A stretch of DNA of 64,000 bases from the NCBI RefSeq assembly GCF_021183825.1, contig NZ_CP089211.1, forward strand, positions 620,001 through 684,000. Direction: 5' to 3'. A model generated the notes under the pieces. It searched no databases. It saw only the letters and a program-made list of their open reading frames with translations, and had not been told where the DNA came from. The stretch is from Sinomicrobium kalidii (GTDB lineage: Bacteria > Bacteroidota > Bacteroidia > Flavobacteriales > Flavobacteriaceae). Shown here piece by piece: positions 21,781 to 33,069 of this stretch (the first letter of the stretch is position 1; every line of letters starts with the position of its first letter). Made by a program: the position numbers and the translations under genes.

Positions 21781-22107
21781 GCCACGGATACACGGATGTT
21801 TTTGGGGGTTGTTCCTTCAGAACTTCCCTTTGGTGTGTGGGTTGTTTTAAAGGTTCTCCGTTTCAGACGAAGCGGGGTGTCCCGCTTTGCGGGACAGGGA
21901 GTTTGACCCGGCCAGGTCTTGGGACTATTCCCTTACCTTTGTGTTTTTCCCATGGCCTGGGCTTTCAAACCCTCCGACCAGACTAAAGTCTGCCCACCTC
22001 CCTTCGTCTGAAGGGAGGAGCCTTTTGGGAGCTTACTCACATCAGAAAAAAGTACTCCAAATCAAAGTCCCACAAGGGACACTAAAAAACATTCGTGTAT
22101 TCGTGGC
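21781..22107. repeat. Composite element: inverted C modules flanking B element copy 7
   Basis: GCCACGGATACACGGATG (21781-21798) and CATTCGTGTATTCGTGGC (22090-22107) form terminal inverted repeats around B copy 7 (21850-22023). This copy has hairpin 2 TCCCGCtttGCGGGA and a variable hairpin CCAGACTaaAGTCTGC with one broken pair. AGTCCCACAAGGGAC precedes the right C module. Together with the GT-rich run at 21737-21775 this fills the whole gap between the genes at 21681 and 22238. Confidence 0.75.
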
Positions 22108-22237
22108 AAAAAAACTTGCGTTACCCCCCGCTATATCCAAAGAACATCAAAAAAAATAATTCACGAATTTGTCATCATTCCGTAACAAAATCGTATTTTT
22201 TTCGTCAGGTTATGTAGAATAGTCAAAAACAAATACT

Positions 22238-23131
22238 TTGGAAACCATTTTAAGCATCCGGAACCTCACCAAGAAGTTCGGCTACCTCACAGCGGTTAAA
22301 GACCTTTCCTTTTCTATCGAGAAAGGGAACGTATACGGCATCCTGGGGCCCAACGGCAGTGGAAAGTCCACCACGCTGGGCATTGTGCTCAATGTAGTGA
22401 ACAAGACCGCGGGCAGTTTTCAGTGGTTCGACGGGCAGGTATCTACCCACGACGCATTGAAAAAAGTGGGCGCCATTATTGAGCGGCCCAATTTCTACCC
22501 GTATATGTCCGCCGAAAAAAACCTCAACCTCGTCTGCAAGATCAAGGACGTACCCCGCGAAAAGATCCGCGAAAAACTGGAAGTGGTGGGCCTGTACGAC
22601 CGTAAGGACAGCAAGTTCAGCACCTATTCCCTCGGGATGAAACAGCGGCTGGCCATTGCCTCTGCCCTGCTCAACGACCCCGAAATACTGATCCTCGACG
22701 AACCCACCAACGGGCTCGACCCCCAGGGCATCCACCAGATCAGGGAAATCATTAAAAAGATCGCTGCCAGCGGAACCACCATCCTCCTCGCCTCGCACCT
22801 GCTGGACGAAGTGGAGAAAGTATGCACCCACGTAGTGGTGCTCCGCAAAGGTGAAAAGCTCTATTCCGGACGGGTAGACCAGATGATCGCCAGCCACGGT
22901 TTCTTCGAACTCCGCTGCAAGGAGCGCAACAAAGCCCTGTCCCTGCTCCGGGAAAACCGGGCCTTTAAAGACATCAAGGAAGAGAACAGTACCATCACCG
23001 CCTTCCTCAGCGAACCCATGGAAGCGGAAACCTTTAACAAGCTGATGTTCGACAACGGCATTATCCTCTCGCACCTTGTTAAGCGGAAGGAAAGCCTGGA
23101 AGAGCAGTTTTTGGCGCTTACGAAGGATTAA
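22238..23131 (+). CDS. ABC transporter ATP-binding protein
   Basis: A 297-residue ATPase of the CcmA/BcrA type. Walker A GPNGSGKST (residues 37-45), Q-loop region IIERPNFYPYMSAEKNL, signature YSLGMKQRL, Walker B ILILDEPTNGLDP and the switch His in ILLASHLLDEV are all present. The start is TTG at 22238 (no ATG is available before the conserved N-terminal strand). The matching permease follows at 23572 but is separated by a repeat region; the two probably form one exporter. Substrate unknown. Confidence 0.9.
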   Translation: METILSIRNLTKKFGYLTAVKDLSFSIEKGNVYGILGPNGSGKSTTLGIVLNVVNKTAGSFQWFDGQVSTHDALKKVGAIIERPNFYPYMSAEKNLNLVCKIKDVPREKIREKLEVVGLYDRKDSKFSTYSLGMKQRLAIASALLNDPEILILDEPTNGLDPQGIHQIREIIKKIAASGTTILLASHLLDEVEKVCTHVVVLRKGEKLYSGRVDQMIASHGFFELRCKERNKALSLLRENRAFKDIKEENSTITAFLSEPMEAETFNKLMFDNGIILSHLVKRKESLEEQFLALTKD

Positions 23132-23571
23132 TGAAGTTAATGCGTTGGTTAGTTGGGGAGTTTTGGAGTTATTTGGCTATTGAGTTATGAAATTATTGGG
23201 AAAATTATAAACAACAAAAAACTCCCCACTCACAAAGCGGCCCACCCTTCTTCATCTCAAGAGGGGAGTCCGATTAAAGTGTAACTAAAAAACATAAAAA
23301 GAAAAAAACGGAGAGTTTGACCCACCCCAGGTCTTGGGATTATTTCCTGACTTTTGTGTTTTCCCTATGGCCCGGGCTTTCAAACCCTCCGATCCCGATC
23401 AAAGATCGGGACCACCTCCCTTCGTCTGAAGGGAGGAGCCTTTTGGGAATGCCCATATAAAAAAATAAACCAAAGTCCCGTGAGGGACAAAATAAAAAAC
23501 ATTCGTGTATCCGTGGAAAAACACTAACAACTAAAAAACTAAGAACTAAAAGACTAAAAAACTATAAAAAT
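23132..23571. repeat. Mosaic repeat region splitting the ABC gene pair
   Basis: Gene-free 440 bases containing GT-rich A-module text (23140-23200), a rearranged B terminus (CTTCATCTCAAGAGGGGAG, 23252-23270), B element copy 8 (23308-23441) and a C module (23494-23517). Confidence 0.7.
23308..23441 (+). repeat. B element copy 8 (left end rearranged)
   Basis: Core GAGAGTTTGACC ... CCCAGGTCTTGGG ... TTTCAAACCCTCCG, then a variable hairpin TCCCGATCaaaGATCGGGA unlike any other copy, and the usual right terminus CTTCGTCTGAAGGGAGGAGCC. The left hairpins are missing or displaced to 23226-23272. Confidence 0.7.
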
Positions 23572-24778: not shown

Positions 24779-25210
24779 TGGTTTTTATAAAGTACGGAAA
24801 AACAGGGAAATGGCTGTCTCCGGGCAGGGGTGATTTGTCGGGTTATGAGTTGAAATAGGGTGTGATTGGACATTTTTTTAGGGAAAATGTGGTGGGTTAC
24901 GGGAAGCCGTAAGAAATTTTAATAGGTTTTCTGTAATATTAGCAAATCATACAGTTTATACTAAATTATGAATATACTTGGGACTTTCATAAATCTCAAG
25001 TGTATTAAATAAATAGCAACTGATCAAAAATTGATATATTGTAAAAAGGTATAATTTCATTTTCACCCCAATTATATTGTCTTACTGACTTCTCCCAAGA
25101 ACACGAAAATGTGTGCTTATCTATGTTTAAAATGAACTAGTACTGAAAACCGTAAACCAGAAATTAAATCCAAAAGTATTTTTGGGCGTCAAACCAACCA
25201 TGCTTACCAA
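24779..25210. other. Intergenic transition into the AT-rich island
   Basis: Base composition drops sharply to AT-rich after about 24,900. Only the promoter element at 25177-25184 is recognised. No attachment site, tRNA fragment or integrase was found. Confidence 0.5.
25177..25184 (+). promoter_or_regulatory. -7 promoter element for the DUF4407 operon
   Basis: TATTTTTG matches TAnnTTTG, 26 bases before the first gene of the operon at 25211. Confidence 0.6.
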
Positions 25211-25756
25211 ATGACTAAAAAGTTCAAAATAAACTTTAAGAATAAAATCAGTATGATAATATTGCATGGACAATGTTTTCTTCTGTTTTTCAAAAACTTA
25301 CTATTTATAAAAAAATTAAATCTAAAAAGTGTATCACTTTCCGATAATATTGTAATTCAAAATAACCAAACAGAATTACTCTGGAAAGTAAATGGTTGTT
25401 ATAAAATAAAGGTTCATGATCTCGGTATTTTCCCGGGAAATTCATGCGGCATAAGGTTTATTTTTCTTCCTAACTATAATCCAATCGAAATAACATTTTT
25501 TGGAATAGATAAAAAATTAAAAAAGACCTTAGTAATTGAAAGCACCAGAATAGATTTGATCAACAAATTTGTCACTTCCTCTAAAATCCCAATCACTTCA
25601 ACCATTCCATATTTCAAACAAAGAATCGAGAACTACTTTAGAACTTCTAATCACTATATAAGATCAATAAATATCGAGATCAAATCACAAAATCTACTTG
25701 TGGAATTTGAAACCTTTGAAATGAAAAACTATACAACCAAAAACACAACAACATAA
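25211..25756 (+). CDS. Unknown protein, first gene of the DUF4407 operon
   Basis: A 181-residue Lys/Ile-rich protein, family not recognised. Residues 14-35 are hydrophobic (MIILHGQCFLLFFKNLLFI) but not a clean signal peptide. The middle (about 40-115) looks beta-rich, with an ELLWKVNGCYKIKVHDLGIF step resembling small Ig-like domains, and the C-terminal half is mixed. The stop overlaps the ATG of the next gene by one base (TAATG), so translation is coupled. The low-GC, AT-rich codon use matches the rest of the island and differs from flanking genes. Confidence 0.65.
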   Translation: MTKKFKINFKNKISMIILHGQCFLLFFKNLLFIKKLNLKSVSLSDNIVIQNNQTELLWKVNGCYKIKVHDLGIFPGNSCGIRFIFLPNYNPIEITFFGIDKKLKKTLVIESTRIDLINKFVTSSKIPITSTIPYFKQRIENYFRTSNHYIRSINIEIKSQNLLVEFETFEMKNYTTKNTTT

Positions 25757-26982
25757 TGGAAAGAGATTTTTACAAAACCCCAAAATCTTCTAAGCTGATA
25801 CGTCTTTTTTGGAAAGCTGCGGGTGCAGACAGGTACATATTGGAACGAGCCACTTACTCAGACCAGGTAAAGTACATGTGTTTAGGCGGAATAATAATTG
25901 CTACCGGACTAATGGCAGGTTTAGCAGGAGGCTATGCATTTTACACAATTTTTGAGCCGAGAGGATCAGCTATAGACTCTAATTTTAGTTGGGCAACTTC
26001 AGCTTTATCCATAGTATTTGGATGCTTTTGGGGATTAATGATTTTCAATCTCGACCGATTCATAGTTTCAAGCACAGGTAAAGGAGACGGAACAGAAGTA
26101 ATTACCTGGGACGAGTTTAAAGGTGCTATCCCACGATTGATTTTAGGTGCCATAATAGCATTGACAATTTCAAAACCTGTTGAAATAAGAATGTTTAAAT
26201 CTGAAATTGATGCTGCTCTCCATGAAGAACAATTGAAAACAAGAAAAGAGTATGAAAAAAGAACAAGGATAAACTATGAAGATCGTCTGGCTTTGATTGA
26301 TAATGAATTGGAAAAAATTGAAGTCAAAAGAAATGATCTCGTTCAAAGAATAAAAAAAGCAGAAAAAGAGCATACCGATCAATTACAGGGAAGAGCCGGG
26401 GCTCCTGCGGGTGATGGCAAGTTAGCTCAAGCTCTTGAAAGAATAAAGAATAATTTAATTCTTCAACTTGATGAGTTTGATGAAACCAATAAGGAACGAG
26501 TAACAGAATTGACCAGTAATAAAAGAAAGTTAATTCTAGAGATGGATAAAGAGTTAGCTAAAAACGAACAAGTAGCATCGGGACTTGATGGTTTATTAGA
26601 AAGAATAAAACTAGCACATGAAATAGCAGGATTTTGGATATCTCTATTTATTACCCTGCTTTTTATGGCCATTGAAATGACACCTATATTTTTCAAACTA
26701 ATGCTTATAAAATCTCCTTATGACTTCTTAAAAGAAAATGTAGATGAACTAATGAAGGCCGAACAAGGTATTCTCATTGAATATAATTATCATAAAGACA
26801 AACAGGGGCAGGAACGGGATCTAGTAAGACACATTCACAAAGAAAAATTATTAGTTGAAAAGAAATCACTGCAACAAGTACAAGAAGAATTAACAAAATA
26901 TGCTATTTCAAAATATGAAGAAGAAATGAAGAAGAAAATAGATGCCAACCCTACAGCATTTGTCAAAGTTCAGGAAAACTAA
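25756..26982 (+). CDS. DUF4407 membrane protein with long coiled coil (first paralogue)
   Basis: A 408-residue integral membrane protein of the DUF4407 family. Membrane helices lie at about 41-65, 82-104, 122-142 and 291-316. Between helices 3 and 4 a Glu/Lys-rich coiled coil of about 140 residues (145-285) would project from the membrane. Conserved family steps are FNLDRFIVS (97-105), ISKPVEI (138-144) and MAIEMTPIFFKL in helix 4. The C-terminal 80 residues are again charged and helical. Function of DUF4407 is unknown; it sits second in an operon, 11 bases before a shorter paralogue. Confidence 0.88.
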   Translation: MERDFYKTPKSSKLIRLFWKAAGADRYILERATYSDQVKYMCLGGIIIATGLMAGLAGGYAFYTIFEPRGSAIDSNFSWATSALSIVFGCFWGLMIFNLDRFIVSSTGKGDGTEVITWDEFKGAIPRLILGAIIALTISKPVEIRMFKSEIDAALHEEQLKTRKEYEKRTRINYEDRLALIDNELEKIEVKRNDLVQRIKKAEKEHTDQLQGRAGAPAGDGKLAQALERIKNNLILQLDEFDETNKERVTELTSNKRKLILEMDKELAKNEQVASGLDGLLERIKLAHEIAGFWISLFITLLFMAIEMTPIFFKLMLIKSPYDFLKENVDELMKAEQGILIEYNYHKDKQGQERDLVRHIHKEKLLVEKKSLQQVQEELTKYAISKYEEEMKKKIDANPTAFVKVQEN

Positions 26983-26993
26983 GCTATCGAAAA

Positions 26994-27953
26994 ATGAATC
27001 TTAAAAAATTTCTCTGGAAACTTTCGGGAGATGATTTCAATATTATCCTCCAGTGCAATGAAACGACTAAATATCGTTTTTTGGCAATCGGAGGATTGGT
27101 AGCCGTAATCTTTGCCTTATGCTTTGTTAGTTGCTACTTTTCATTTACAATGTTATTTCAAAATTATTTTATTGGAATTCCCATAGGGATATTTTTTGCC
27201 TGGATGGTCACCAATATTTACCTTTTATTACTTTATACATTATCTAAAAATCCATTTCCTCATAAGACAAATAAATCCGCCAGGTTTATTTCCGTAGCTA
27301 TCCGATTAGCATTCATCAGCTTTATTGCAATAGTAATTTCAAAGCCAATTGAGAACCTGGTGTTTACAAAATATTTAGATGAAGAAATCAAAGCATATAA
27401 ACACGAAAAATTAGACCTGTATAAAAAATCAACAGAAAAATATTTTGATGAGGAAATTAATGTTATCACAGATATCATTAGTAGGCAAAAAACTCTTAAT
27501 AATATAATCGATGAAAAACAATTGAACAAGTATCAAAATTTGATTCAATTAAAAGAGAAACGAAAAAGCGAGTTGATTAAATCAATGGAGAAATTGGTTA
27601 ATAAATCCAATTACTATATCGAAGGAATTAAAATCCTAAATTATAAATATCCCTTCTGTTGGGGCATTACACTAATTATTGTATTAACATTTTTATTTCC
27701 TGCATATCTTAAAATCTTTCTTGACGAAAATACTATTTACTATAAGACCAAACATTATATTGAGAACAGACTGATTAAAGAAGAATACACTTCATTCAAA
27801 ACAAAATACAATCAGTTGTTCCTAACACGTTTCAACCAAGACATTCACTTCACAGAGCTATATATTGACCCTCCTTTTAATACTATCAAGAAAAGAGACA
27901 AAAAAACCATTTTAAAAGAGGATGATTTAATTGAAAGCCTATATAATGCCTGA
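26994..27953 (+). CDS. DUF4407-like membrane protein (second, diverged paralogue)
   Basis: A 319-residue protein with the same plan as its upstream neighbour: helices at about 30-54, 58-82, 98-117 and 220-242, with a shorter coiled coil (about 125-205). ISKPIENLVF (115-124) matches ISKPVEIRMF of the first copy, and the N-terminal FLWKLSGDD parallels FWKAAGADR. The NLDRF motif is replaced by NIYLLLLY, and the helix 4 EMTP step by FLFPAYLK, so it may have a structural partner role. It overlaps the next gene by 8 bases. Confidence 0.75.
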   Translation: MNLKKFLWKLSGDDFNIILQCNETTKYRFLAIGGLVAVIFALCFVSCYFSFTMLFQNYFIGIPIGIFFAWMVTNIYLLLLYTLSKNPFPHKTNKSARFISVAIRLAFISFIAIVISKPIENLVFTKYLDEEIKAYKHEKLDLYKKSTEKYFDEEINVITDIISRQKTLNNIIDEKQLNKYQNLIQLKEKRKSELIKSMEKLVNKSNYYIEGIKILNYKYPFCWGITLIIVLTFLFPAYLKIFLDENTIYYKTKHYIENRLIKEEYTSFKTKYNQLFLTRFNQDIHFTELYIDPPFNTIKKRDKKTILKEDDLIESLYNA

Positions 27954-29574
27954 ATACATAACCATACAAGAACATGTTGAAAGAAGGACCTATATTAAAG
28001 GGGAGTTTCACGGGAAGTTTATTGGCTATTTAGATCCTAAAAAATCAGATCTAATTCACGAAAATTTTTATGACCTCGAAGTTATAAGTGGTAAAATAAA
28101 AACAATTAGAGATGAAAACCACATAAGACACTGGGAAACAGGGGAGTCGGAAGAATTTCAGTCAATAGAAACTTTCCTCACCAACCTTCCGGAGTCCTTA
28201 CCCTTAGAAGTATATCACAAAAATGGAAGTCTAAAAACCTATCAAATAAATTTAAATGAGGCTAAACTAAATCATTTCACCCTTTCTAATCAGGTTTATG
28301 AACATAACAAGATATTCGGAGATATTACAGGTGATATCTCGGGATATATCAAGCATTATGATGTTCAGGACAAACAAGTTGAGGTAAAAGATTCTGCAGC
28401 AGGCAAAGTTCATGTTTCTACTGAAAAGATCAAAACAAAAAAACAAACAGGAAAATCCGAAACAAGAGGTAATTATAAACGTTGGCAATACTACTATTTT
28501 GACGGTACTACCTATTGGGGAAATTGGATAAAACAACATACCGAATCTACTTATTCACTTTGGGAAGTTTTAGCTATTCTTTTACAAGGCACTCTTTTAA
28601 TAGCTTTTATAGCCCCCATCATCATCATAGGTTGGAAACTTATTATTCCAATTATGATCATAGGGGGAATTTTCTATTTACTATCTACTCTACAAACAGT
28701 TATCGTCAAGGTATTTGGGTGGTTATTCAAATTTCTTGGTATTGCTTTTCTATTATTCCTGGGTTTTGGAATATTATCTTTATTCACAAATTCTATTCAA
28801 ACAACTAAAAGGACCAATTATTCCGATAGTTCAGAAAAAGAAGTACAGGAGATAGTCCCAAGTCCCATAATAAGAGATAGCATAGTATCTCATCACAGAA
28901 TTTGGGAAGACTACAACAACAAAGAATATTCAGGAAACATTGAGGTAAGGGTTTCCGATTTCACAAATGCAGCAAACTTCAGGAATACTATTTCAACTCC
29001 TTTGCAAAGCGTGGAGCAATATAATCAGATTGTCTCCCAAATTGTTGAATTTGACAATAACAAATTAGATTTACTGTACTTAATGTTAGACAGTCTAAAG
29101 GTTCAAAACAATTTAGGTGAAATTAAATTTGCCGAAGTTATTGTTTCTTTAATTCAAGACATTCCTTATACCTTAATTTTGGATAATGCTTGTGATGCAA
29201 AAAGGTACAATGACAATTTTATCGAAAACTATTTACAAAATGGAGGGAAATGTGAAGGTTATATTAAGTTTGGAATACTTTCTCCAACCGAATTTATGGC
29301 CAGTTTAACAGGTGACTGTGATACAAGGACCCTTCTGCTGTTTTCGGTTTTAAACCATTATCGTTATGATGTGGTTATGTTAAGCAGCGAACTTTACAAA
29401 CATTCAGTAATAGGAATAAATTTACCTTATAATGGAACTTCAAAAATAATTAACGGGAAACGATATGTAATTTGGGAAACTACTGAAAAAGGACTACCTC
29501 CAGGAGTGATTTCCCGTAAAATTTCCGATATGCGATTTTGGAATGTATCATTGATTTCGAATAATAAGATATAA
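27946..29574 (+). CDS. Membrane protein with transglutaminase-like C-terminal domain
   Basis: A 542-residue protein. The N-terminal 200 residues are probably cytoplasmic and beta-rich, with Gly-Asp patterned steps (FHGKFIGYLD, GDITGDISGYI). A membrane block of three to four helices follows at about 206-282, then a C-terminal domain (about 300-542). That domain has GDCDTRT (Cys458), YKHSVIGIN (His486) and VIWETT (Glu511), spaced and ordered like the Cys-His-Asp/Glu triad of transglutaminase-fold cysteine proteases. I start it at the ATG at 27946 rather than a TTG at 27931. It overlaps the second DUF4407 gene by 8 bases, indicating coupled translation. Confidence 0.7.
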   Translation: MPEYITIQEHVERRTYIKGEFHGKFIGYLDPKKSDLIHENFYDLEVISGKIKTIRDENHIRHWETGESEEFQSIETFLTNLPESLPLEVYHKNGSLKTYQINLNEAKLNHFTLSNQVYEHNKIFGDITGDISGYIKHYDVQDKQVEVKDSAAGKVHVSTEKIKTKKQTGKSETRGNYKRWQYYYFDGTTYWGNWIKQHTESTYSLWEVLAILLQGTLLIAFIAPIIIIGWKLIIPIMIIGGIFYLLSTLQTVIVKVFGWLFKFLGIAFLLFLGFGILSLFTNSIQTTKRTNYSDSSEKEVQEIVPSPIIRDSIVSHHRIWEDYNNKEYSGNIEVRVSDFTNAANFRNTISTPLQSVEQYNQIVSQIVEFDNNKLDLLYLMLDSLKVQNNLGEIKFAEVIVSLIQDIPYTLILDNACDAKRYNDNFIENYLQNGGKCEGYIKFGILSPTEFMASLTGDCDTRTLLLFSVLNHYRYDVVMLSSELYKHSVIGINLPYNGTSKIINGKRYVIWETTEKGLPPGVISRKISDMRFWNVSLISNNKI

Positions 29575-29576
29575 AT

Positions 29577-30077
29577 ATGACAAACATCATCATTTTAATT
29601 TCAATTTTAGTAAGCGGAGGGCTTACTGTATTTATCTTGAATGCCATTGTTAACTACAAGATAAAGAATAAAATTTCAGAAAATGAAAAACCGCTGACCA
29701 TTGTTGTTTTAAAAACCTTCATGTTTTTAATTTCCGGACTTTTATTAAGTGAATTAATTACATCTTTCCAGACCCTTACTAAAATCCTGCCCAACAGTTA
29801 TTCTGGCTATACTCTGCTTCTCAGAGAAGCTTCATTTTTTTGTATTTTTCTCGGAATTTTAATCCTTATTCTTTTTGCTATTCTCTGGTTTGCTGCATTT
29901 ATGTTTAGCTTGCTAAACAAAGGAGATCATATTTTTATGGAAACAGCCAATAACAATCTGAATGCCGTTATTCTTTTTTGTGGGATTTTATTAGCATTAA
30001 CAATTGCTATTAAAACAGGAATAACCCCAATCTTAGACCAGTTTATTCCTTATCCAACTATGCCAATCTATCGTTAA
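29577..30077 (+). CDS. Small four-helix membrane protein
   Basis: A 166-residue hydrophobic protein with helices at about 2-25, 44-66, 92-116 and 128-150. No family recognised. It lies 2 bases after the transglutaminase-like gene and 3 bases before the next, so it is part of the same operon and is a plausible subunit of the same membrane assembly. Confidence 0.65.
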   Translation: MTNIIILISILVSGGLTVFILNAIVNYKIKNKISENEKPLTIVVLKTFMFLISGLLLSELITSFQTLTKILPNSYSGYTLLLREASFFCIFLGILILILFAILWFAAFMFSLLNKGDHIFMETANNNLNAVILFCGILLALTIAIKTGITPILDQFIPYPTMPIYR

Positions 30078-30080
30078 TCT

Positions 30081-30380
30081 ATGAGAAATATTATCAAAAT
30101 CGTACTGGCTATTTTATTCTTTATCTGCCTAGCTGACATGCCTTATGGTTACTATCAACTTGTGAGATTTGTTGCTTTTATAGGCTTTTCAATACTGACC
30201 TATCAAGATTATCAACAAGGAAAACAAACGGAAATGTTTATTTATGGAGTTTTGGCACTACTTTTTCAACCATTTTTAAAAATTGCTTTAGGTAGAGAAC
30301 TTTGGAATATAGTTGACGTAATTGTTGGAATAGGTCTAATAATTTCAATATGGAAACAACCAAAAAAATCTAACACCTAA
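30081..30380 (+). CDS. DUF6804-like small membrane protein
   Basis: A 99-residue protein with three hydrophobic helices; PYGYYQLVRFVAFIGFSILTY (in two parts, residues about 22-42) is the pattern of the DUF6804 family of small Bacteroidota membrane proteins, from memory. Last tightly spaced gene of the operon. Function unknown. Confidence 0.65.
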   Translation: MRNIIKIVLAILFFICLADMPYGYYQLVRFVAFIGFSILTYQDYQQGKQTEMFIYGVLALLFQPFLKIALGRELWNIVDVIVGIGLIISIWKQPKKSNT

Positions 30381-30455: not shown

Positions 30456-30917
30456 ATGAGAAAAATGAAATACATTATAATTTTAGCTATAGTAATAATC
30501 ACTTTTTCTTCTTGTAACGAAAATGAAATATCAGGTTTAAATAATCAGATTTCGAAATTAAAAAATCAAAATGCTGAATTGAGAGATTCGATTTCGAAAC
30601 TTGAACTAAAAAATATTTATGCTTATCATATTCTAGGAATTACTAAACAAAAAAGTTTAAAGGTCAATAAAGAAACAACAATTGATTTTGTTTTCGGATA
30701 CAGAGATTACATAAAGGAATACGATGTATATCTTTTAACAGGTAAAAAAGAGAATGATCGAGAACTGATTTTGAAAGGCCAAAAAATAAGTGAATTTAAA
30801 TACACGTATACTCCTAAAAATAAAAATGATAATAGAATTAAACTTATAGCTGTATTTGATTTAGATAGTATAAATATTGAAATTCCTGCAGATGTAACAA
30901 TTAATGTAACTGATTAA
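30456..30917 (+). CDS. Lipoprotein with coiled coil
   Basis: A 153-residue precursor with a signal peptide and lipobox TFSSC (acylated Cys near residue 20). Directly after it comes a coiled coil (ISGLNNQISKLKNQNAELR) and then a beta-rich domain (about 60-153). The more likely start is Met4 (30465). 75 bases after the operon's last membrane gene, so it may belong to the same transcript. Not assigned to a family. Confidence 0.65.
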   Translation: MRKMKYIIILAIVIITFSSCNENEISGLNNQISKLKNQNAELRDSISKLELKNIYAYHILGITKQKSLKVNKETTIDFVFGYRDYIKEYDVYLLTGKKENDRELILKGQKISEFKYTYTPKNKNDNRIKLIAVFDLDSINIEIPADVTINVTD

Positions 30918-30997: not shown

Positions 30998-31432
30998 ATG
31001 GCAACAACAAATAAATATATAAGAATTCGCTTTTTTAATAACTTTAAAGGAGAAGACAGCATACTAATTACTGCCGATATCAAAGGACTACTTGAACTTG
31101 AAAATGCTTTTACCAAACTGGCAAATGGACACAGCAAATATGAATTTACCCAACTCAAGCTTTTAGACCCTCAGTTCAAACTCAATATAACAGCAATAAG
31201 TGATAATAAAGATTTAGGACTTATGGCAATCTCATCAGGCAAATACGAATGGAGGCTAACAAGTAAAAAGTGGAACGAATTCAAAGAAAAGCTGATCAGT
31301 ATGTATAGACTTGGTAACGGAGGACACCATTACTTAGATAATGATAGTACATTCAACAACGACCTGCAAGTAATTTTTTCCTGGAACGAAGATCAATACG
31401 ACCTTGATTTTTGGAACAAACTCAAAAAATGA
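30998..31432 (+). CDS. Unknown cytoplasmic protein at the right end of the island
   Basis: A 144-residue protein with no signal peptide or membrane helix. It has a beta-rich N-terminus (YIRIRFFNNFKGEDSILI), a helix (GLLELENAFTKLANGHSKY), and a GNGGHHYLDND step near residue 108. Size and composition resemble small immunity or accessory proteins, but I cannot support that. Last gene with the island's AT-rich composition. Confidence 0.55.
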   Translation: MATTNKYIRIRFFNNFKGEDSILITADIKGLLELENAFTKLANGHSKYEFTQLKLLDPQFKLNITAISDNKDLGLMAISSGKYEWRLTSKKWNEFKEKLISMYRLGNGGHHYLDNDSTFNNDLQVIFSWNEDQYDLDFWNKLKK

Positions 31433-31859
31433 AATTGTTTTAATTATAACCAGCAGCAAGAACAATATTTATAGTATTGAAATTCTGATTGCCGCCAGTT
31501 TCCAACTGGCCGGCATCCCAAACCAACCCAAAAATACAACACCACTAAACAACACCTAAAACCACAACAAAAAAGCCTAACCAAGCTGGCGCGAGCGTCC
31601 CGCTCGTGCTAACCCAAACCAAAGCAAAAAAACAATACCAACCACAACACCCCAAAAACCCCACAAAAAACACCCCCTCCCCTTCCAAAACCCTCAAAAA
31701 TTCAGTATCTTTACAATTCCTTAAATCCCAAGATTATGAATTCGAAAAACAATTTTGCCCGTATGGCATGGTGGCGGTATTGGAAACAACTGCAACGCTC
31801 TTGGGAGCGTAGGACACCTAAACTATACGGGTTCAATATTTCCTTAAATCCCAAGAATT
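31433..31859. other. Intergenic region with palindromic repeats and duplicated leader
   Basis: Contains D repeat copy 1 (31491-31524, hairpin CCAGTTtccAACTGG), a second palindrome GCGAGCGtccCGCTCG near 31588-31603, an A/C-rich low-complexity run (31530-31690), and two direct copies of TTCCTTAAATCCCAAG (31717-31732 and 31840-31855), the second leading into the gene at 31860. A short Trp/Arg-rich ORF starts after the first copy (31736); it is not called. Confidence 0.55.
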
Positions 31860-32129
31860 ATGAAACCTTTAGATTTCGAAGCGTACAAAGACACGCTCAA
31901 AACCAACCCCAACGGCGAAAACTACGTAGAACTGCTGGTAGACAGCTATGAAACCCTGGCCCTGCTGCGCTATTACATAGCCCATGCCATTCAGCTTATC
32001 GCCGAAGTCCATGAACATCACAAACAGGACGATGAAATGGCCTACTCGCTCTATTACCTGACGCATATTCTAAAAAGCACCACACCATTAGGCGAGTGTT
32101 TCGGGATAGACAGGACGTTGGAGGCGTAA
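31860..32129 (+). CDS. Small hypothetical protein
   Basis: An 89-residue mostly helical protein (LLVDSYETLALLRYYIAHAI, VHEHHKQDDEMAYSLYYLTH). Not recognised. Support for a real gene: sound codon use, an own terminator at 32161-32186, and a preceding TATCTTTA promoter-like element before the duplicated leader. Confidence 0.55.
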   Translation: MKPLDFEAYKDTLKTNPNGENYVELLVDSYETLALLRYYIAHAIQLIAEVHEHHKQDDEMAYSLYYLTHILKSTTPLGECFGIDRTLEA

Positions 32130-32160
32130 GGCTGTAAAGCCATTGTATTAATTTGGTAAA

Positions 32161-32186
32161 AGGCTCCGGAGATTCGGGGCCTTTTT
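32161..32186 (+). terminator. Terminator after the 89-residue gene
   Basis: AGGCTCCG (32161-32168) pairs with CGGGGCCT (32175-32182) followed by TTTTT. A G motif (GTTAGATTTGAGATATGATA) follows at 32191-32210. Confidence 0.6.
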
Positions 32187-32288
32187 AGGTGTTAGATTTG
32201 AGATATGATATTTTAGACATATATAGGATGGACATAAGATGGACAGAAAGACTCGCCATAACTCATCTATTAAACGATGCACCCGGTT

Positions 32289-32319
32289 GCCGCCAGTTTT
32301 CACTGGTGGCCCTCAAACC
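32289..32319. repeat. D repeat copy 2
   Basis: GCCGCCAGTTTTCACTGGTG followed by GCCCTCAAACC; a diverged copy of the element at 31491-31524. Confidence 0.5.
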
Positions 32320-32360
32320 ACCACAAAAACACCTCCTTTCCTGTTAAATGGTTAATTATG

Positions 32361-32368
32361 TATTTTTG
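32361..32368 (+). promoter_or_regulatory. -7 promoter element for the GNAT gene
   Basis: TATTTTTG matches TAnnTTTG, 48 bases before the ATG at 32417. Confidence 0.55.
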
Positions 32369-32416
32369 TGTATAAATTTCAAGTCAAAATAAACACAAAG
32401 AAAACCGGGAACAGGA

Positions 32417-32938
32417 ATGGAAAACATCGAGATCAGGAAAGCAACCCTTACCAATATTGAAGAATTACAAAAAATCGGCAAACAGACATTCGCTGAAACT
32501 TTTGCTTCGGGCAATAGTGAAGAAGACATGAAAGCATACCTGGACCAATCATTCTCTAAAGAAAAACTGCAAACAGAGTTATCCGACAAAAACTCCGAAT
32601 TTTACTTTGCAGTACTGGACGATAATGTCATTGGGTATTTAAAGATCAATGTCGGACAATCACAGACCGAAGTAAAGGACGAAAAGGCCCTTGAAATTGA
32701 ACGCATCTATGTTTTAAAGGAATTTCACGGAAAAAAGGTAGGGCAACTGCTTTATGAAAAAGCTATTGAAATTTCAAAGCAAAAAGACATTGACTATGTC
32801 TGGCTCGGCGTTTGGGAAGAAAACCCGAGAGCCATCCGGTTCTATGAGAAAAACGGTTTTGTGGAATTTGACAAGCATATCTTCAAATTAGGGGATGACG
32901 AACAGACGGACATTATGATGAAACTACAGATGAATTAA
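32417..32938 (+). CDS. GNAT family N-acetyltransferase
   Basis: A 173-residue acetyl-CoA-dependent transferase. The cofactor loop is FHGKKVGQLLYEKAI (about residues 108-122) and the C-terminal strand-helix VWEENPRAIRFYEKNGF (about 135-151) is the classic GNAT motif B. The central LEIERIYVLKEF is motif A's strand. Similar proteins include PaiA-type polyamine acetyltransferases, but the substrate cannot be assigned. Confidence 0.88.
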   Translation: MENIEIRKATLTNIEELQKIGKQTFAETFASGNSEEDMKAYLDQSFSKEKLQTELSDKNSEFYFAVLDDNVIGYLKINVGQSQTEVKDEKALEIERIYVLKEFHGKKVGQLLYEKAIEISKQKDIDYVWLGVWEENPRAIRFYEKNGFVEFDKHIFKLGDDEQTDIMMKLQMN

Positions 32939-32947
32939 GCTCTGTCA

Positions 32948-32980
32948 CTGCCAGTTCCCGAATGGCCGGCATCCCAAACC
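32948..32980. repeat. D repeat copy 3
   Basis: CTGCCAGTTCCCGAATGGCC then GGCATCCCAAACC, 9 bases after the GNAT stop; shares GGCCGGCATCCCAAACC with copy 1. Confidence 0.5.
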
Positions 32981-33069
32981 AAAAACACAACACCGGTAAA
33001 TATTCATTATAAATCCTTATTTTTACAAAAAGCCTCATATCAAAACCCCATAACATTAAACCTCAACCT

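Follow-up and report, generated by a model that had tools for sequence, protein, structure and literature searches.

A recurrent operon of DUF4407 proteins and a membrane-anchored transglutaminase-fold protein in Sinomicrobium kalidii and other Bacteroidota

Introduction

Within a 64,000-nucleotide stretch of the Sinomicrobium kalidii genome (the window; contig NZ_CP089211.1, positions 620,001 to 684,000, assembly GCF_021183825.1), six adjacent genes, here g1 to g6, combine two membrane proteins of the family DUF4407 with a membrane protein bearing a Cys-His-Glu triad. This locus raises the question of whether these genes belong together and, if so, what their products do. In the portion of the open-licence literature that was covered, DUF4407 occurs in three papers, as a table entry in each, and no description of this operon was found in open-licence papers, the listings of which were covered in part. 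Here g1 to g5 are found to form a recurrent unit, and we propose, with a probability of roughly 0.6, that they encode an accessory, inside-out inner-membrane complex with the periplasmic Cys-His-Glu enzyme of g4 as its output.

Results

Conservation of the five-gene unit

Open reading frames (ORFs) of the window place the six genes on one strand, tightly packed, between positions 25211 and 30380, as a preliminary description of this DNA had stated. All coordinates are window positions.

25211..25756, plus strand: g1, 181 amino acids (aa), no Pfam family; hydrophobic N-terminal segment (about residues 15-33), then a beta-rich domain
25756..26982, plus strand: g2, 408 aa DUF4407 membrane protein (PF14362, 227.6 bits, E 2.7e-67; cut-off 31.3)
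26994..27953, plus strand: g3, 319 aa, diverged second DUF4407 protein with a shorter central region (PF14362, 78.5 bits; cut-off 31.3)
27946..29574, plus strand: g4, 542 aa from ATG (547 from an alternative TTG at 27931), membrane-anchored transglutaminase-fold protein
29577..30077, plus strand: g5, 166 aa, four predicted membrane segments; follows g4 in its long and short forms
30081..30380, plus strand: g6, 99 aa small membrane protein, DUF6804 (PF20619, 122.7 bits; cut-off 27), optional

Genes g1 and g2 overlap by 1 base and g3 and g4 by 8 (23 if the TTG start is used), and gaps of 11, 2 and 3 bases separate g2/g3, g4/g5 and g5/g6. Proteins of the window were compared with the profile libraries Pfam, NCBIfam and PADLOC-DB 2.0.0 (PADLOC and Pfam for eight window proteins). 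Both g2 and g3 exceeded the Pfam cut-off for DUF4407, as had been claimed, with the g3 match covering the first half of the PF14362 profile only. No Pfam family was found above cut-off for g1, g4 or g5, and NCBIfam gave no match above cut-off for g1 to g6. The match of g5 to DUF350 (PF03994; 18 bits to a partial profile, cut-off 26) does not make it a member of that family.

Of 7996 candidates that were scored, 510 are homologues of g4 at E ≤0.01. When one genome per species was scanned with an alignment, 92 loci were confirmed and 80 of them retained; four others, the window's own locus included, bring the set to 84 loci, 44 with a long g4 (≥400 residues) and 40 with a short one, for which profile searches of all ORFs were combined with a neighbour count. 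By this approach, g5 was found directly 3' of g4 in all 84 loci, and g1-g2-g3 preceded the long g4 in this order in 31 of the 34 loci with at least 3.3 kb of upstream sequence. Of the three that differ, L025 and L027 have split frames and L028 lacks a recognisable g1. The other ten long loci have a shorter upstream stretch: two hold g1-g2-g3 (L037 and L038), five have the fitting part, two are cut off and one (L003) has an unrecognised ORF. The order g1-g2-g3-g4-g5 recurs over five named orders of Bacteroidota. In a sample of class genomes chosen independently of gene order, DUF4407 was present in 9 of the 12 genomes with g4 versus 43 of the 283 others. Over 33 loci the distances of g1 to g5 are correlated for each of the ten gene pairs (rho 0.41-0.76), a level that none of 500 permutations reached; this fits joint inheritance and is no proof of contact.

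Adjacency elsewhere and conservation of the triad residues had been named beforehand as tests of the preliminary description; it withstood both, and g1 to g5 are a recurrent unit beyond chance. The proposed six-gene unit is narrowed accordingly to five genes plus an optional g6, found directly after g5 in 7 of the 44 long-g4 loci. That the six genes are a chance cluster draws on the frequent absence of g6; nothing in its favour was found for g1 to g5, for which the conserved order in the 84-locus neighbour count rules it out, leaving this explanation a negligible probability. DUF6804 genes also occur in other DUF4407 groups: one opens the group in L167, and another lies 188 bp downstream of DUF4407 in L172. 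Gene g6 is thus loosely associated with such groups.

A predicted membrane-anchored enzyme with an invariant triad

The predicted model of g4 has the features of the transglutaminase-like fold, with a cysteine at a helix start, a histidine strand and an acidic-residue strand.

27946..28545, plus strand: g4 N-terminal beta-rich domain (about residues 1-200), probably cytosolic
28558..28788, plus strand: g4 membrane helices, three (residues 205-281)
28846..29571, plus strand: g4 transglutaminase-fold domain (residues 301-542), probably periplasmic
29317..29319, plus strand: Cys458, predicted catalytic, at the N-terminus of helix 458-471
29401..29403, plus strand: His486, predicted catalytic, at the start of strand 486-491
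29476..29478, plus strand: Glu511, predicted catalytic, directly after strand 505-510

The triad noted in the preliminary description is thus located at C458, H486 and E511, and a check of its conservation found Cys-His-Glu in 84 of 84 loci. Glutamate was likewise present in 116 of 120 homologues listed, the other four having a gap. When the modelled enzyme domain was compared with known folds, LapG came out nearest, with transglutaminases 2 and 3 within about 1 Z unit and PNGase comparable. The conserved gene set, the predicted fold and the invariant triad are direct results of these computations.

Several lines support a topology for g4. Seven relatives (L019, L021, L030, L033, L034, L035 and L039) carry a J-domain-like N-terminal stretch with an HPD motif; that of L019 matches Pfam at E 2.2e-21, and PF00226 was matched by 5 of 70 aligned members, in an alignment that holds five of the seven. 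J-domains act with cytosolic Hsp70, and the g4 N-terminus is therefore expected in the cytosol; with three helices following, the enzyme domain would lie outside the inner membrane. In short g4 forms, which have at most three membrane segments, the loop joining the second to the third is rich in K/R. Most likely, the enzyme domain faces the periplasm and the N-terminal domain the cytosol.

DUF4407 proteins and their g1-type partner

26197..26580, plus strand: g2 coiled-coil hairpin in the modelled secondary structure (residues 148-275), between the third and fourth long membrane helices

The predicted model of g2 (pLDDT 81.2) consists of long membrane helices and this hairpin, which would lie on the periplasmic side, given the charge at both hairpin ends and the helix count. 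In g1, the domain after the N-terminal segment is Ig-like by eye. An iterative search from the g1 core over 7458 ORFs gave 51 matches, 50 of them with a same-strand DUF4407 start no more than 200 bp downstream; the other is a fragment in L036, with a DUF4407 start at 335 bp. As the search pool was assembled from the surroundings of DUF4407 or g4 loci, some of them present twice, the position of these matches is informative and their count is not. The g1 family is a recurrent beta-rich partner of DUF4407.

In nine of 20 hand-picked wider regions, a g1-type protein immediately precedes DUF4407 and no g4 was seen (L167, L168, L169, L172, L173, L174, L177, L181 and L185). Three of these carry a fusion of the g1-type module to a protein kinase (L167, E 2.1e-6, below the Pfam cut-off; L172, E 2.5e-8; L181, E 1.6e-13), and each fusion is preceded by a vWA gene and a PP2C gene. 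In L167 both of these score above cut-off; in L172 the vWA gene falls below it and the PP2C gene was assigned by eye, as were both genes in L181. Ahead of the fusion, L167 and L172 also encode a PLD plus J-domain protein, above both cut-offs, and a PLD-like N-terminus was noted in L168 (weak, below cut-off; scanned as L135), L169 (without Pfam support; scanned as L137) and L185 (by eye). Other arrangements include g2-g3 without g4 (L170) and the series in L171, where g2 comes before a membrane protein of 333 residues that had no match and then one whose end is OmpA-like (E 3.3e-18); the latter may stand in for the g4 enzyme. L186 has a caspase-like gene (metacaspase-1, E 4e-4), then after 222 bp a TIR gene (E 1.3e-14; scanned as L141) and, 13 bp past its end, g1-g2-g3; the enzyme part of g4 is replaced there.

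DUF4407 was present in 52 of 295 class genomes and in 118 of 392 genomes, and 23 of 30 DUF4407 loci inspected from the former search had no recognised partner within about 1.5 kb. Much of DUF4407 thus seems to be a solitary gene with a role of its own, and a family so widespread and mostly partnerless is not in itself a marker of defence. In the Rhodococcus plasmid pLW2 (L148), an NYN-domain gene overlaps a long DUF4407 gene and is followed by PP2C, FHA and FtsW genes. All 15 phage records matching g2 are Prevotella Lak megaphages (MK250015-MK250029; H2-H16, also L144-L146), each with a DUF4407 gene at 32-34% identity to g2; three IMG/VR contigs likewise encode one (26-32%). A role of phage-borne DUF4407 as decoy or superinfection factor is speculation.

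Distribution and the short form

Gene g4 was found in 4 of 99 relatives and 12 of 295 class genomes, with the S. kalidii genome counted in both; among the 12, one g4 has internal stops (G332) and another lacks the enzyme domain (G212). On a quick tree, 10 changes among five orders are required to account for the 71 rows whose order is named; this suggests transfer, with long branches and metagenome bins limiting the reading of the tree. The five-gene form is rare, patchy and probably accessory.

The short form is LuxE-g4-g5 without DUF4407. LuxE lies immediately upstream in 34 of the 35 short loci with at least 1 kb of upstream sequence, the exception (L036) being a split long g4, and the gap from LuxE to short g4 has a median of 1 bp over 36 pairs (for example L062:8690-10696); LuxE was identified from one scanned member (E 2.2e-14). 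The 40 short loci comprise 37 that form one tree group (SH-aLRT 100), the split gene of L036 and two contig ends (L074 and L080), and this setting recurs in Aquimarina and allies. Two recurring families upstream of LuxE-g4-g5, in 23 and 7 loci (L077:8547-8897, L047:3255-4988 and their clusters), resemble, by eye, secreted proteins with a T9SS sorting end; these neighbours are possible surface substrates of the g4 enzyme. The short form may serve the envelope, and since LuxE and apparent surface proteins adjoin it, it suits an envelope role at least as well as a conflict role.

The genomic site in S. kalidii

The operon lies in an AT-rich island, as had been described: GC content per kb is 0.29-0.34 at 25-31 kb and 0.36-0.53 over the remaining window. 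In this 5.36-Mb, single-contig genome the island occupies a site at which two same-genus relatives lack it: G005 has both the upstream ABC permease and the downstream GNAT gene, with other genes between, and sequences 8.6 kb apart in the window lie about 1.9 kb apart in G001. Gene g4 is absent from all five other genomes of the genus. The element TAnnTTTG upstream of g1 (TATTTTTG, 25177-25184), noted earlier ahead of the six genes, occurs 53 times in the window versus 61.6 expected from shuffling and therefore carries no evidential weight. Dispersed intergenic repeats are indeed present by both borders (22000-23521 and 31489-32982). Similar copies stand side by side in the operon-free G005 (L109 2384-2583), so the repeats look like a genus repeat rather than island ends.

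Two further AT-rich genes lie 3' of the operon, one for a likely lipoprotein (30456-30917) that among the 84 loci occurs in the window's own locus only, and one for a protein of no recognised kind (30998-31432) that was matched in none of the 84. A recurring trio (TPR/HATPase lipoprotein, response regulator and a protein of no recognised kind), whole or partial, flanks many five-gene loci (L018, L019, L029-L035, L039-L042 and L052), with HSDR_N-only and SNase genes alongside; these flanks look like a shared hot spot. Soon after the operon in L018, L023, L031 and L040, a gene matches the ligand-binding domain of pentameric ligand-gated ion channels (cluster c54, one member scanned).

Discussion

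Comparison with known systems

The closest parallel is LapD-LapG, in which a periplasmic transglutaminase-like protease is under cytosolic c-di-GMP control (PMC3032545, seen in part). The operon resembles it in enzyme fold, in the probable periplasmic side and, as proposed, in the logic of cytosolic control via inner-membrane proteins. It differs in that its enzyme is membrane-anchored with an N-terminal domain across the membrane, that Glu replaces Asp, and that DUF4407 stands instead of LapD; GGDEF, EAL and HAMP had no Pfam match in the operon proteins. According to the parts of PMC4241560 consulted, the LapG/BTLCP triad is Cys-His-Asp (or Asn), and HvyA, a distant LapG relative in Caulobacter, is likewise a transglutaminase-like envelope enzyme, but consists of a signal sequence and a BTLCP domain with a C-H-D triad and controls the capsule. 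Membership of g4 in LapG/BTLCP was rejected because triad, anchoring and sequence profile differ: glutamate is found in 84 of 84 loci, three membrane helices follow a 200-residue N-terminal domain where a soluble signal-sequence enzyme would be expected, and no such family appeared among matches at E ≤1, a range in which the filters lose most matches above about 0.1. The operon is LapD-LapG-like in outline and no member of that family.

Relatives L167, L172 and L181 carry, directly before DUF4407, genes like the TerY-P triad of vWA, PP2C and kinase, several parts being assigned by eye. The window operon itself is not TerY-P, as no vWA, PP2C or kinase match was found among the eight window proteins and the output is a transglutaminase-fold enzyme. 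NTP-dependent conflict systems, in the portion of PMC7159879 seen, are similar in that their domains can be exchanged, with caspases, kinases and, rarely, transglutaminase-like peptidases among them, and in that one type is membrane-associated and made of two genes; unlike them, the window operon has no NTPase match in Pfam. Neither DUF4407 nor TerY occurs in the main text of that paper.

Proposed working and alternatives

A multi-subunit membrane complex with a Cys-His-Glu enzyme, as first suggested, remains the best reading, and we infer complex formation itself, the direction of signalling and the enzyme chemistry. On the cytosolic face, g1 and the g4 N-terminal domain (plus the J-domain in some relatives) would detect a cytosolic state; the two DUF4407 proteins and g5 would hold g4 in check and pass the change on; and the periplasmic transglutaminase-fold domain would then, most likely, cleave or deamidate a protein or wall peptide. 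Two observations weigh against the topology assumed here: a hydrophobic segment stands at the N-terminus of seven other long g4 (L012, L013, L014, L017, L022, L026 and L037), and hydropathy counts differ from locus to locus among g4. In L012, RRKK after the hydrophobic segment would retain the next domain in the cytosol.

The five-gene form is more likely to serve in stress or conflict than in housekeeping, given the TerY-P-like groups, the caspase and TIR locus and the HSDR_N and SNase flanks. The sharper and compatible proposal is an anti-phage role, in which the window operon would detect infection from inside the cell and use its periplasmic enzyme to damage the envelope or to stop entry or release; this is plausible, though less likely than not. 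It accords with a patchy, AT-rich operon and a tree suggestive of transfer; with flanks in which, among the matches listed from 150 of 226 eligible genes scanned, HSDR_N appears at least 12 times, SNase at least 11 times, and DRT, a methyltransferase, Cas6 and a cyclase once each; with TIR and caspase-like genes before g1-g2-g3 in L186, though g4 there lacks the enzyme part; and with the kinase-fused g1-type modules beside vWA and PP2C-type genes, as TerY-P or TerY-P-like modules are reported to be antiphage in the parts seen of PMC7699616 and PMC11090510. Those reports do not transfer automatically, because no g4 was seen in the TerY-P-like stretches, the PADLOC result was unconvincing and the enrichment control was crude. 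Also against an anti-phage role, PADLOC-DB gave one weak, unconvincing match among the eight window proteins (g3, E 0.015); random regions were also PADLOC-positive (60 families for 92 proteins versus 182 for 150), a crude comparison in which families rather than proteins were counted; and the breadth and solitude of DUF4407 point the same way.

Envelope maintenance or surface-protein processing without a phage link, as LapG or HvyA perform, is in line with LapG as nearest fold, with the capsule control by HvyA (PMC4241560, in part) and with the recurring setting of the short form with LuxE and T9SS-like secreted neighbours. The rarity of the five-gene form, the tree suggestive of transfer and the lack of an adhesin or capsule gene among the annotated recurring five-gene neighbours listed tell against it, and it too is less likely than not for the window operon. 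That the enzyme is a true transglutaminase, cross-linking or modifying rather than cutting, is improbable: transglutaminases 2 and 3 lie close to LapG in the fold comparison and fold alone does not set the chemistry, but LapG and PNGase rank no lower than they do, and envelope members of HvyA type are described, in the portion of PMC4241560 seen, as transglutaminase-like cysteine proteases.

Returning to the inside-out complex, a broader and rather doubtful extension is that DUF4407 with a g1-type partner is a general membrane platform of conflict systems, with swappable cytosolic sensors (kinase triads, J-domain, TIR/caspase) and periplasmic outputs (the transglutaminase-fold enzyme, perhaps an OmpA-like wall anchor), and that the form in the window fires its enzyme into the periplasm upon phage infection.

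Implications

With these findings DUF4407, so far without an assigned function, gains defined partners, a likely topology and an associated enzyme whose key residues can be tested. Should the inside-out complex prove real, it would be a second design for cytosolic rule over a periplasmic transglutaminase-fold enzyme; if an anti-phage role also holds, it would be a defence output working in the periplasm.
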